Assembly: GCA_028284605.1 (NCBI GenBank)
Contig: JANQRL010000028.1
Location: 1 to 64,000, forward strand
Reading direction: 5' to 3'
Source: Paracoccaceae bacterium
Lineage (GTDB): Bacteria > Pseudomonadota > Alphaproteobacteria > Rhodobacterales > Rhodobacteraceae
DNA: 64,000 bases
This document shows, piece by piece, positions 45,855 through 53,042 of this stretch; position 1 is the stretch's first letter, and each line of letters opens with the position of its first letter. Made by a program: the position numbers and the translations under genes. The notes beneath the pieces are model-generated. The model did not search any database and was not told the origin of the DNA. It worked only from the letters and a program-made list of their open reading frames with translations.

Positions 45855-46655
<801 letters not shown>

Positions 46656-48001: not shown

Positions 48002-49579
48002 TCAGCGCTCCTTCAACTTGATCGACTGGTTGTAGACGTTCATCGCGCCCGAGATGATCAGCGATGTCACCAGATAGAATCCGCCCAGCAGCAGCATCCC
48101 CTCCAGCTCGCGACCGGTCTGATTGATCGTGATCCCGCCAAGGGTGGATCGGACATCCATGTATCCCACCGCCAGGGCGAGCGACGAGTTCTTCGTCAGG
48201 TTCAGGTATTGCGAGATCAGCGGCGGTACGATGACCCGCAACGCCTGTGGCAGGATCACGAGGCTCATCGTCCGGTTCGGACGCAGGCCGAGCGCAAAGG
48301 CCGCCTCGGTCTGGCCACGAGAGACGGCAAGGATCCCGGAGCGGACATTCTCGGCGATGAACGCGCTGGTATAGAGCGACAGGGCAAGCCACAGTGCGAT
48401 GAGCGGGTTGCGAAGCGGGATGCCGCCCTCGAACCGGGCGATCCCGGATTCGGTGATCTCCGGCACCTCGACCTGCACTGCGGGGCCTTCCAGCACGGTA
48501 TCGGAGAGCACCACGGCAACGGCGTCGCCACGCAGCTCGGGGGTCAGCTCGGCGGCGAATGCCGCGGCCTCCGACGCCGGCACCGCGATCATCACGCACT
48601 CGCCCCGCGCCAGACCCCGGGCCGAGTCACGATCGCCGAAGAACTCCCTCGCCCGATAGCTGATCTCCCGCTCGTCCAGCAGGTTCTGGGTGCTGAATGA
48701 CCCGCCGCTGCCCCGGATCCGGCAGAAGTCGATCCGGCCGGCCGCGCCGGAGAACTCGGCCAGGGACATGCCATCCTCCGCGCCGACCGCGACCAGCGAC
48801 AGTTCGTTGGAGCGGGACCCGGCCGAGATGATCAGATTGGCCGCGATCAGGGCGCTGAGCAGAATGGCGACGGAGGGAATCAGAACCGGCATGGTCTCGC
48901 CGGTCGCGTCCTGCCGCCGATGCGCCATCCGGCGCAGCGCCCAGATTCCGATCAGAGCCAGAACGATGGCGATCACGAAGAGGATCGCCCCATCTGCATA
49001 GACCAGCCTCGGGATGAAGCTGCCCTGTCTGGTCATCGCGATGGAACCGAAGAGCATGGTACTCTCCGCCTGTCCGGTCTCGGCATCCGGCCGGAATGTC
49101 GAGGGATGCGGCAGACCTTCGGAGAAGATCGCGAAGACGAGCAGGATCCACAGCAGCGTCGGGATGTTGCGGAAGCCCTCCACATAGACCGACATCAGCC
49201 GCGCGACGATCCAGTTCTTGGAGAGCCGAAGCACCCCGACCGTCACTCCGAGGACCGTCGCCAGGGCACAGCCGAGAACCGCGACGAGCAGGGTGTTGAG
49301 GATGCCCACGAACGCCGCCCGTGCATGGGTGGCCTGGCTGTCATACGGCACCAGCCGTTGTCCGATATCGTAGCCCGCAGGCTGGCCGAGGAAGCCGAAG
49401 TCGATATCCTTGCCCAGCGCCTGGAGGTTCTGGACGGTGTTCGACACCAGCCAACTGAGACCCAGCATGATCAGCATGAAGGCCACGACCTGGATCGTCA
49501 GCGACCGGTAGCGGGTGTCGTAAATCAGTTGGCTTAGCCGAAAGCTCTCGCTCGGCGGCGGGTCAGTCAACGTTGACAT
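48002..49579 (-). CDS. aapQ: general L-amino acid ABC transporter, permease AapQ/BztB with an extra periplasmic insert
   Basis: 525 residues, whereas the family is usually about 390-430. TM1 IQVVAFMLIMLGLSWLV; permease core from about residue 85; EGFRNIPTLLWILLVFAIF; EAA loop VRSGILAVSRGQTEAAFALGL at about 413-433 (conserved EAA---G---------I-LP spacing follows with VILPQALRVI). Between the TM near residues 230-252 and the TM near 392-410 there is a stretch of about 115 extra residues (254-367). It contains REISYRAREFF, LARGECVMIAVPASEAAAFA and VVLSDTVLEGP, similar in order to part of AapJ. The reading frame is intact, so this is a real insertion, not a sequencing error. Confidence 0.93.
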   Translation of the reverse strand: MSTLTDPPPSESFRLSQLIYDTRYRSLTIQVVAFMLIMLGLSWLVSNTVQNLQALGKDIDFGFLGQPAGYDIGQRLVPYDSQATHARAAFVGILNTLLVAVLGCALATVLGVTVGVLRLSKNWIVARLMSVYVEGFRNIPTLLWILLVFAIFSEGLPHPSTFRPDAETGQAESTMLFGSIAMTRQGSFIPRLVYADGAILFVIAIVLALIGIWALRRMAHRRQDATGETMPVLIPSVAILLSALIAANLIISAGSRSNELSLVAVGAEDGMSLAEFSGAAGRIDFCRIRGSGGSFSTQNLLDEREISYRAREFFGDRDSARGLARGECVMIAVPASEAAAFAAELTPELRGDAVAVVLSDTVLEGPAVQVEVPEITESGIARFEGGIPLRNPLIALWLALSLYTSAFIAENVRSGILAVSRGQTEAAFALGLRPNRTMSLVILPQALRVIVPPLISQYLNLTKNSSLALAVGYMDVRSTLGGITINQTGRELEGMLLLGGFYLVTSLIISGAMNVYNQSIKLKER

Positions 49580-49699: not shown

Positions 49700-50716
49700 T
49701 TAGCGGAACGGCGGCGAGTAGAGCAGGCCGCCTTCGGTCCAGAGTGCGTTCAGCCCGCGCGCCAGGCCGATCGGCGTGTTCTCCCCGATGTTCTTCTCGA
49801 AGAGCTCGCCGTAATTGCCGCCGACCATGATGGCGTTCTTGGCCCAGTCCGGCTCCAGACCCAGCATCGCGCCGAGCTCGCCTTCGCTGCCGAGCATCCG
49901 GTTGATTTCCGGGTTGTTGGTGCCGGCGGACAATTCCTCGACATTGGCCGATGTGATGCCGAGCTCTTCGGCCGAAATCAGCGCGTTGAGCGTCCAGCGC
50001 ACGATGTCGCCCCAATCATGGTCGCCATGACGCACGAGCGGGCCGAGCGGCTCCTTGGAGATGATCTCGGGCAGGATCACGTGATCGCCCGGGTTCTCGA
50101 AGGTAGCGCGGGTCGCGGCGAGGCCGGACGCGTCCGTGGTGTAGACGTCGCAGGCCCCGGCGAGGTACTGCTGCTGCGCTTCGGCATTGGTCTCGATCGG
50201 CACCGGCTCGTAGCTGATGTTGTTCACGCGGAAGAAGTCCGCGAGGTTCAGCTCGGTGGTGGTGCCGGTCTGGATGCAGACCGTCGCGCCGTCGAGATCG
50301 CGGGCCGAACTCACGCCAAGCTCGGTCGGCACCATGAAGCCCTGGCCGTCATAATAGTTGATGCCGACGAATTCGAACTTCAGGTCGACGTCGCGGCTGA
50401 AGGTCCAGGTGGTGTTCCGGGCCAGCATGTCGACTTCGCCCGAGGCGAGCGCGGTGAAACGGGTCTGACCGGTCGTGGGCACGAACTCGACTGCGGTCGG
50501 GTCGCCGAACACCGCCGCTGCGACCGCGCGGCAGACGCCGACGTCAAAGCCCTGCCATTCGCCGTTTGCGTCGGGTGCTGCGAACCCGACGAGACCGGTT
50601 GTGACGCCACAGATCAGGTTGCCACGCGCTTGGATATCGTCGAGTGTCGCGGCCGATGCGGCGCCGGCCGTCAGGCCTGCGACGGTGAGCGCACCGAAGA
50701 TGACGGATCTCTTCAT
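49700..50716 (-). CDS. aapJ: general L-amino acid ABC transporter, substrate-binding protein
   Basis: Periplasmic binding protein (AapJ/BztA). 338 residues. Signal peptide MKRSVIFGALTVAGLTAGAA with cleavage near ASA-ATL. Binding-protein fold with GLVGFAAPDANGEWQGFDVG, VCRAVAAAVFGD, ARNTTWTFSRD, GATVCIQTGTTTELNLADFF and CDVYTTDASGLAATR. ATG 50716 is supported by AGGAAGAGG upstream. First gene of the operon, followed by an intercistronic hairpin. The stretch 137-226 is the one that resembles the AapQ insert. Confidence 0.96.
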   Translation of the reverse strand: MKRSVIFGALTVAGLTAGAASAATLDDIQARGNLICGVTTGLVGFAAPDANGEWQGFDVGVCRAVAAAVFGDPTAVEFVPTTGQTRFTALASGEVDMLARNTTWTFSRDVDLKFEFVGINYYDGQGFMVPTELGVSSARDLDGATVCIQTGTTTELNLADFFRVNNISYEPVPIETNAEAQQQYLAGACDVYTTDASGLAATRATFENPGDHVILPEIISKEPLGPLVRHGDHDWGDIVRWTLNALISAEELGITSANVEELSAGTNNPEINRMLGSEGELGAMLGLEPDWAKNAIMVGGNYGELFEKNIGENTPIGLARGLNALWTEGGLLYSPPFR

Positions 50717-50920: not shown

Positions 50921-51628
50921 TTATTCCTGGGCAAGCCGGAAAAACGACGCCGCGAGGAGGAAGCTCTGGCGCTTCGCCTCCGCCGCCTCGGCGGCCTCCG
51001 CGTCCCGGCCCCATTGCTCCTCCTGCCACGTCTCGTCGAGCCGCGAGAGCGTCCAGGCCGCCTCGGCACCGAGATGGTCTTCCGCAACGGCAAGCCCCAG
51101 GACGAGGGACCCGGAGAGCGTGATCAGATCGTGAAGCCCGGCCAGGGGAAACGGCGGGAAGCGGTCAAGTGCGGCGGTCAACCGGGCCAGGGCCGTGGGG
51201 TCCTGAGCCACCGGCATCAGCCCCGGCGCGACCCGGAGCCGGGCTCCGAACCGCGCCGCCGCCCAGTCGAGCAGCGGGTCCCAACGCGCCGCTTGCCTGT
51301 CGGCCAGCGCGCCGGGCTCCGCGCGGTAGCACAGAAGGTCGGTACCGCCGTACTCCGCCAGATGAGCGATCACGGCGGCGCGTTGCGGGATCACCTTTTC
51401 GATGGCCGAATTCGCCGCCCGGGTGACCGGCATCGTGCGCGGATCGACCTCGCCCTCCTGGTCGTCCCATTCCGCCGCCACCGCCTCGGCGAGGGCCCGG
51501 TTCGGCAGGATCAGCGGCGCCTTGCCCGGGGTCCGCACGGGCCGTCCGTCGAGGGCGACGCCATAGCCGCCCTCGGTCTCGGTCACCGCCACCTCGGCCC
51601 AGAACCGCTTCGCCCGCCAGTCGCTCAT
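50921..51628 (-). CDS. ATP12-family F1-ATPase assembly chaperone
   Basis: 235 residues. KRFWAEVAVTETEGGYGVALDGRPVRTPGK in two blocks matches the conserved N-terminus of ATP12 (RFWK.V.V....G..V.LDGRP..TP). GGTDLLCYRAEP and GSLVLGLAV are the other typical stretches. In mitochondria ATP12 aids assembly of the alpha subunit of F1; alphaproteobacterial homologues presumably do the same. Start ATG 51628 overlaps the rluC stop (ATGA). Confidence 0.93.
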   Translation of the reverse strand: MSDWRAKRFWAEVAVTETEGGYGVALDGRPVRTPGKAPLILPNRALAEAVAAEWDDQEGEVDPRTMPVTRAANSAIEKVIPQRAAVIAHLAEYGGTDLLCYRAEPGALADRQAARWDPLLDWAAARFGARLRVAPGLMPVAQDPTALARLTAALDRFPPFPLAGLHDLITLSGSLVLGLAVAEDHLGAEAAWTLSRLDETWQEEQWGRDAEAAEAAEAKRQSFLLAASFFRLAQE

Positions 51629-52665
51629 GGGATATCCGCGAAGGGGTCGACCGGCGCCGTCCCGGGGTCCCAGCCGAGCATCTCCCAGGTGCGCGCCATG
51701 TGATCCGGGAGCGGCGCGGCCAGGTGCAGGCGCGCGCCGGTGGCCGGGTGGGTCAGGGTGAGCGAGCGGGCATGGAGGTGGAGCTTGCGGCTCAATCCGC
51801 CGCCCAGGCCCGCGCCCCAGCCATCGCCCAGGTTCTCCTGCCCCGAGCCGCCATATTTCCCATCCCCGGCAATCGGATGGCCGATCTCCGCCATATGGGC
51901 CCGGAGCTGGTGGGTGCGGCCCGTCACCGGCACGAGCGCGACCCAGGCGGCGCGGGTGCCCAGCGCCTCGATCACCGCGTAATCGGTCACCGCGCGCTTG
52001 GCGCCCGGGATCGCCTCCACCTCATCGGGATGCACCGCCCACATCTTCTCGGCCTCGCCCCCGGCCCCGTGACCCGGTGCCTTCACCAGACCGTAGCGGA
52101 TCGTCCCCATCGCCGGATGCGGCAGGCCGGCCACCGCGGCCCAATAGATCTTGCGGGTGGCCTTGGCGCGCAGGGCCTCGCTCAGCGCCCTCGCCATCTC
52201 CCGGCTGCGGGCCAGCAGCAGGACGCCGGAGGTGTCCTTGTCGAGCCGGTGGACCAGCCTTGGCCGGTCCTCTGCGCCAAAGCGCAGAGCTTCGGCCAAC
52301 CCGTCGACATGGCGGCTCTGGCCGCTGCCGCCCTGGCTCGGCAGGCCCGGCGGCTTGTTCAGCGCAATGAGATGGTCGTCGCGGTAGAGCACCGCGGCCC
52401 GGATCATCTCGGCATCGGCCGCACTAACCGGTGGTCGCTCAGGCGCCGGGACCGTGGCATCGGGCAGCGGCGGCACGCGAACCGCCTGCCCCTCAACCAC
52501 CCGGTCGGACGCCTTCGCCCGGCCCCCGTCGATGCGGATTTCGCCCTTGCGGCAGCCCTTCTCGATGCGGCCTTGCGTGATCTGCGGCAGCCGCCGCTTC
52601 AGCCAGCGGTCGAGGCGCTGATCCCCCTCCCCCGCCGCGACGGTGAGCGTCTGCACCCCGCTCAT
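51625..52665 (-). CDS. rluC: RluA/RluC-family pseudouridine synthase
   Basis: 346 residues. N-terminal S4 RNA-binding domain (GDQRLDRWLKRRLPQITQGR, KGEIRIDGGR). Catalytic domain with LVHRLDKDTSGVLLLARS, where HRLDKDTSG holds the nucleophilic Asp, followed by VTGRTHQLRAHMAEIGHPI, the RluA end motif. Probably modifies 23S rRNA (RluC positions); the exact target is inferred from family membership. Start ATG 52665 overlaps the crcB stop. Confidence 0.93.
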   Translation of the reverse strand: MSGVQTLTVAAGEGDQRLDRWLKRRLPQITQGRIEKGCRKGEIRIDGGRAKASDRVVEGQAVRVPPLPDATVPAPERPPVSAADAEMIRAAVLYRDDHLIALNKPPGLPSQGGSGQSRHVDGLAEALRFGAEDRPRLVHRLDKDTSGVLLLARSREMARALSEALRAKATRKIYWAAVAGLPHPAMGTIRYGLVKAPGHGAGGEAEKMWAVHPDEVEAIPGAKRAVTDYAVIEALGTRAAWVALVPVTGRTHQLRAHMAEIGHPIAGDGKYGGSGQENLGDGWGAGLGGGLSRKLHLHARSLTLTHPATGARLHLAAPLPDHMARTWEMLGWDPGTAPVDPFADIP

Positions 52666-53042
52666 GCCAGGACGCTCCGCATCAGCCAGAGACCCGCGAC
52701 GAGCCCGGCGATGGAGAGCACCACCGACAGCAGCACATAGAGCGCCGCCTGCCCGACCTGGCCGCGTTCGAAGAGCGTCACCGCCTCCAGCGAGAAGGCC
52801 GAGAAGGTGGTGAAGCCGCCGAGGATGCCGGTCAGCAGGAACGGGGTGAGGTGGGTCAGGCCCCTGCGCGCCAGCCAAACCACCAGGACACCCATCAGAA
52901 AGGAGCCCACAACATTGACCGTGAGCACGCCGAGCGGGAAGCCGGTTACGCCGAAGACCCGCGCCACGCCGACGCCGGTGGCATAGCGCGCAGCCGCCCC
53001 GATCGCACCGCCGGCGGCCACTTGGAGAAGGGTTCCGACCAT
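52662..53042 (-). CDS. crcB: fluoride channel CrcB/Fluc
   Basis: 126 residues, four predicted TM segments. GGAIGAAARYATGV at the start, LTVNVVGSFLMGVLV (the conserved N-x-x-G-S/C-F block), and LLTGILGGFTTFSAFSLEAV, where GGFTTFS is the fluoride-channel signature. Exports fluoride as a dimer. Stop overlaps the rluC ATG. Upstream on this strand comes array F, then rarA. Confidence 0.93.
   Translation of the reverse strand: MVGTLLQVAAGGAIGAAARYATGVGVARVFGVTGFPLGVLTVNVVGSFLMGVLVVWLARRGLTHLTPFLLTGILGGFTTFSAFSLEAVTLFERGQVGQAALYVLLSVVLSIAGLVAGLWLMRSVLA

Follow-up and report, generated by a model that had tools for sequence, protein, structure and literature searches.

A solute-binding-protein lobe carried within the amino-acid permease AapQ, a candidate tethered docking or gating domain

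The window (the whole stretch of 64,000 nucleotides that was analysed) carries the genes of a predicted general L-amino-acid importer in the order aapJ-aapQ-aapM-aapP, which open reading frames and family matches together mark as one operon (Table 1). The permease encoded by aapQ exceeds the cut-off for PF00528 (45-48 bits; Pfam) and for TIGR01726 (49.7 bits against a cut-off of 42.2; NCBIfam), and both the BPD_transp_1 permease core and the HEQRo 3TM segment are present in it. The binding protein AapJ matches PF00497 with 51 bits and TIGR01096 with 218 bits. The neighbourhood upstream of aapJ is ordinary; judged from reading alone, 50921-51628 would encode an ATP12-like F1-ATPase assembly chaperone and 51625-52878 an RluC-type pseudouridine synthase.

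Table 1. Features of the aap operon and of the insert in AapQ.
Feature	Position	Strand	Remarks
aapP, ATPase	45855..46655	minus	Walker A motif GPSGSGKST and signature LSGGQQQR in the ORF
aapM, partner permease, 444 aa	46666..48000	minus	PF00528, 75 bits; not matched by the insert profile
aapQ (bztB-like), predicted general L-amino-acid ABC transporter permease, 525 aa	48002..49579	minus	insert-bearing
Inserted SBP lobe-2 domain (assignment almost certain), AapQ residues 252-364	48488..48826	minus	missing in 50/50 aligned insert-less homologues
AapQ P334 (aligned with AapJ D195)	48578..48580	minus	Pro instead of the presumed Asp for the ligand amino group
Second conserved Cys, AapQ C328 (AapJ C189)	48596..48598	minus	invariant in A1; 14/14 inserts
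First conserved Cys, AapQ C286 (AapJ C147)	48722..48724	minus	invariant in A1; 14/14 inserts
aapJ, intact periplasmic amino-acid-binding protein, 338 aa	49700..50716	minus	lobe 2 at about residues 124-229
aapJ lobe 2 stretch matched by insert profile	50096..50290	minus	24.7 bits, E 4.6e-5

What sets this AapQ apart is an insert of 113 residues in the loop that leads into core TM3. When 50 AapQ sequences without an insert were aligned with it, every one of them ran from column 251 directly to column 365. The original prediction had already recognised extra residues here and had given them as AapQ 254-367, which corresponds exactly to 48479-48820; the insert is real, but its bounds have to be moved to those in Table 1. 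It had also described a series of short motifs collinear with AapJ 137-226, and this resemblance is present, though the last pair, EGP with LGP, is only half right, since the sequence from G365 onward is native permease and not lobe. The GC content of the insert is 70.6%, compared to 63.1% for the rest of aapQ and 68.3% for the window. Judged from topology, the insert lies on the periplasmic side of the membrane, since the EAA loop is cytoplasmic and a basic stretch, RRMAHRRQ, is found between the transmembrane segments 198-226 and 233-255.

When the window's insert and the window's AapJ are considered by themselves, the resemblance of the two sequences is not above chance: BLASTP gives an E-value of 0.43, and the Smith-Waterman score of 36 is matched by 233 of 1000 shuffles. 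We therefore left this pair out as evidence. Homology to lobe 2 of AapJ becomes significant through the sequences of inserts in relatives. For instance, three inserts at the same site (L043, L044 and L080) and one in another loop (L035) score 71-83 against the window's AapJ, with none of 1000 shuffles as good. A profile built from an alignment of ten inserts (A1), which has four invariant columns, two of them cysteines, found only one significant match among 177,635 PDB sequences, the Brucella AapJ-type solute-binding protein (SBP) 4z9n (E 3e-4). The alignment lies in lobe 2 of this protein; the following match was unrelated (E 0.49). Profile-profile comparison of the inserts with 26 AapJ sequences by hhalign gave an E-value of 2e-6 over AapJ columns 140-207.

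The same picture emerges from whole genomes. Within the window's genome, the insert profile matches nothing else but AapJ at E<=10, and a six-frame search of 391 genomes returned strong matches within AapQ inserts in 11 of them. Where other genomes gave weaker matches, all 19 loci examined proved to be AapJ, nearly all of them just upstream of aapQ. Pfam and NCBIfam searches of the inserts yielded nothing relevant, with no Pfam match to single inserts (PF00497 included) and no HMM match to a different domain, an outcome that would have spoken against a binding-protein origin. The weak matches that did appear (RsbA, EXOSC1, DUF5930) were judged to be chance, and a phmmer search of the PDB with the single insert produced chance matches only.

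Structure prediction agrees with the profiles. AlphaFold2 applied to nine inserts gave a model of alternating strands and helices (pLDDT 89.8, pTM 0.83), for which the best Foldseek match in the PDB is again 4z9n (E 3.7e-4, probability 1.00, TM 0.52), the other listed matches being binding proteins or related type II binding-protein-like folds. TM-scores are moderate (0.5-0.6), over long alignments with high rmsd. The predicted fold is thus that of a type II SBP lobe rather than an unrelated one. The AlphaFold2 model of full-length AapQ (pLDDT 86) contains a confidently folded domain between the transmembrane segments 233-255 and 391-417, and matches both 4yms, an amino-acid ABC permease TMD, and 4z9n.

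The insert corresponds to about AapJ 124-229, which is the whole contiguous lobe 2 from hinge strand to hinge strand, and contains only that lobe rather than the two lobes and hinge of an SBP. We regard its identity as a complete AapJ-type lobe 2 as almost certain. The suggestion that a fragment of the binding lobe had been duplicated into the permease is borne out by the profiles, the cysteine pair, the predicted fold and the second insertion in L035. The two conserved cysteines, C286 and C328, presumably form a disulfide. Of the other positions that are invariant in AapJ, L215 is kept in 13 of 14 aligned inserts, and T154, E155 and R203 are kept in none. The counterpart of D195 in DEBP-type SBPs holds the amino group of the ligand, and this position is Asp in 100% of the AapJ sequences compared, whereas it is Pro in 11 of 14 inserts and Asp in two (L045 and L078). 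The window's insert is among the 11, with Pro in place of the presumed ligand-binding Asp of CDVYTTD. Judged from these residues, the skeleton of the lobe is kept and the presumed binding site is lost; therefore the insert is probably a non-ligand-binding lobe and no second substrate receptor.

We looked for the insert in other genomes. A scan of genome contigs gave 33 AapQ relatives, nearly all lacking it. In a search of 395 genomes of the window's family, one per genus, AapQ was found in 360, and the long form in at least 10 of these 360 genera (the window's genome, G050, G107, G208, G253, G273, G331 and G362, and the longer G080 and G349). Other AapQ/BztB proteins thus do share the insert, though patchily and within one family, among Rhodobacteraceae-type bacteria; within some genera it is limited to certain species. 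Searches at class level (385 genomes) and at phylum level (398 genomes), which took in some members of the window's family, showed no insert outside that family. Of 15 non-window matches in the class-wide search we examined 11, all of them AapJ, as were all three phylum-wide matches outside the family. Every insert-bearing AapQ that was examined has an aapJ next to its gene, with a product about 80-88% identical to the AapJ of the window, and the lobe is therefore additional. The record L009 (NZ_JAHVKE010000002.1), labelled Maritalea mobilis DP3N28-3 (Devosiaceae), has an AapQ that matches that of G396; G396 is a member of the window's family, so that the record probably bears the wrong name.

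A similar example is found at a different position in L035, an uncultured Rhodobacteraceae MAG. Its AapQ has no insert at the window's site, and a lobe-2-like insert (L035:5460-5783) lies about 95 residues further upstream, in the periplasmic loop that follows core TM2; the two insertion sites share a side and both lie between core TM2 and core TM3. This insert scores 18 bits against the AapJ HMM, and used alone as a query it finds AapJ in other genomes (15 of 15 loci examined). No other genome with an insertion of the L035 type turned up when we searched for one, leaving this one MAG. In a tree of inserts and AapJ lobes the same-site inserts group together (86/85) and the L035 insert falls with AapJ; since the branches are long, we make no claim as to the number of origins. 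Two inserts, L062:1198-1776 and L051:2248-2736, are 50-80 residues longer, the additional sequence being helical, coiled-coil-like and near the end of the lobe.

The history of the insert was traced on a tree of 67 AapQ cores from which the insert columns had been excluded. At least five state changes are needed, compared to a mean of 14.4 for shuffled states, and three of them are forced by well-supported branches. The AapQ of L080 stands at 62% to its congener compared to 75-80% to insert-bearing AapQ of other genera, and that of L078 at 53-54% to its congeners compared to 71%, while AapJ shows no such closeness to other genera over congeners. When L077, L078 and L080 are set against their congeners (L129, L088/L096 and L131), AapQ and AapJ differ on the nearest relatives, and this disagreement suggests that aapQ was horizontally replaced, or exchanged separately within the operon. 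Separate trees were run for the N-terminal, middle and C-terminal parts of aapQ, all of them short, and recombination may have taken place around the insert. In most close pairs dN/dS is 0.3-0.5 for the insert and 0.12-0.32 for the core, the exceptions being one pair at 0.13, where dS is saturated, and one more distant pair at 0.87. The insert is therefore constrained, though less so than the core, and its protein sequence evolves 2-4 times faster. It is also dispensable, in that most AapQ do without it.

In gene order, permease core, extra transmembrane segments and intact AapJ, the system agrees with AapJQMP/BztABCD importers, and differs from them in the extra lobe that is missing from the 50 aligned insert-less AapQ and from most of the genomes searched. 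To lobe 2 of AapJ-type SBPs (4z9n; SBP_bac_3, PF00497) the insert is alike in fold, collinear sequence and cysteine pair, but it is one lobe, tethered to the membrane in a permease, with the presumed ligand Asp mostly lost. MalF-P2 is comparable in its way of working only, being an additional domain, folded and periplasmic, that a type I importer carries in a loop of its permease; it has a fold of its own, which is Ig-like, sits in another loop and is not derived from a binding protein. In AapQ too, a folded domain occupies a permease loop in the full-length AlphaFold2 model, its periplasmic side following from topology. The P2 loop of MalF moves around MalE (PMC8134467), and SBP docking at the periplasmic loops of MalFG has been reviewed (PMC8276074). 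GlnPQ and OpuA, like the insert-bearing AapQ, have SBP-derived sequence covalently joined to the permease, in the form of complete, two-lobed, ligand-binding SBDs linked to the TMD that act as receptors (PMC8025302, PMC11065425). Here, in contrast, there is one degenerate lobe within a loop instead of a complete fused receptor domain, and a separate AapJ is retained beside it. In the open-access literature we came across no account of a permease with a lone binding-protein lobe in one of its loops, and on that basis the architecture appears to be undescribed.

Our main reading, to which as a whole we would give a probability of roughly 0.6, is that the lobe-2 insert acts as a tethered accessory docking or gating domain. 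An extra SBP lobe permanently tethered on the periplasmic face of AapQ would contact the incoming AapJ or the gate of the TMDs, and this contact would guide or tune productive docking of AapJ, as the unrelated MalF-P2 does for MalE. The docking or gating role taken separately is argued by analogy and is more tentative, though it is the most economical one because the presumed ligand residues are gone and the insert lies near the gate. It is rather unlikely that the lobe is instead a tolerated passenger, a copy of lobe 2 that recombined into a permissive loop and folds harmlessly with no specific role. The faster evolution of the insert (dN/dS mostly 0.3-0.9 compared to 0.12-0.32), its patchy distribution with at least five state changes, the helical segments added in L051 and L062 and the many relatives that manage without it would all suit a passenger. 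However, the insert is in frame, with its predicted fold intact and both cysteines kept across genera whose AapQ cores are 35-50% different, its dN/dS is still below 1, and in L035 such a lobe was inserted separately into another loop, which is hard to put down to chance alone.

A docking domain might also work in the opposite sense, as a competitive or auto-inhibitory mimic that fills the AapJ lobe-2 docking site on the TMDs and throttles transport until displaced. Such a mimic could well be derived from a lobe of the docking protein, adjoin the periplasmic segments of TM2-TM3 by its tether and keep the skeleton without the ligand residues, as the insert does; we nevertheless consider it unlikely, as the lobe-2 residues invariant in AapJ are mostly lost in the inserts, which are thus no faithful copy of the docking face. 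Very doubtful is a regulatory half-site, in which the lobe would gate the permease in response to an amino acid, or to some other small molecule, that it still senses: the Asp at the D195 position retained in L045 and L078 is what one would look for, but 12 of 14 inserts are without it, T154, E155 and R203 are kept in none, and a lone lobe has no closing partner. That an unrelated alpha/beta domain has come to resemble an SBP lobe by convergence could be argued from the insignificance of the window's insert against AapJ alone and the missing Pfam match, yet the profiles single out AapJ from whole genomes and the PDB, both cysteines included, and these searches largely refute convergence, which we find hardly credible.

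A bolder form of the docking reading, which we consider quite improbable, is that this ABC importer has repeatedly captured one receptor lobe into a permease loop and that the tethered lobe pairs with the lobes of the incoming AapJ, as a hybrid Venus flytrap or a lobe-exchange dock. If true, receptor and translocator would share a domain, and docking would be partly self-recognition. The insert indicates that a single SBP lobe can exist alone as an insertion module, one that is missed by standard domain databases. Just how a binding protein finds its permease and triggers it has yet to be settled. Single genera in which some AapQ have the domain and others lack it offer natural pairs, a ready-made system for studying what docking contributes.
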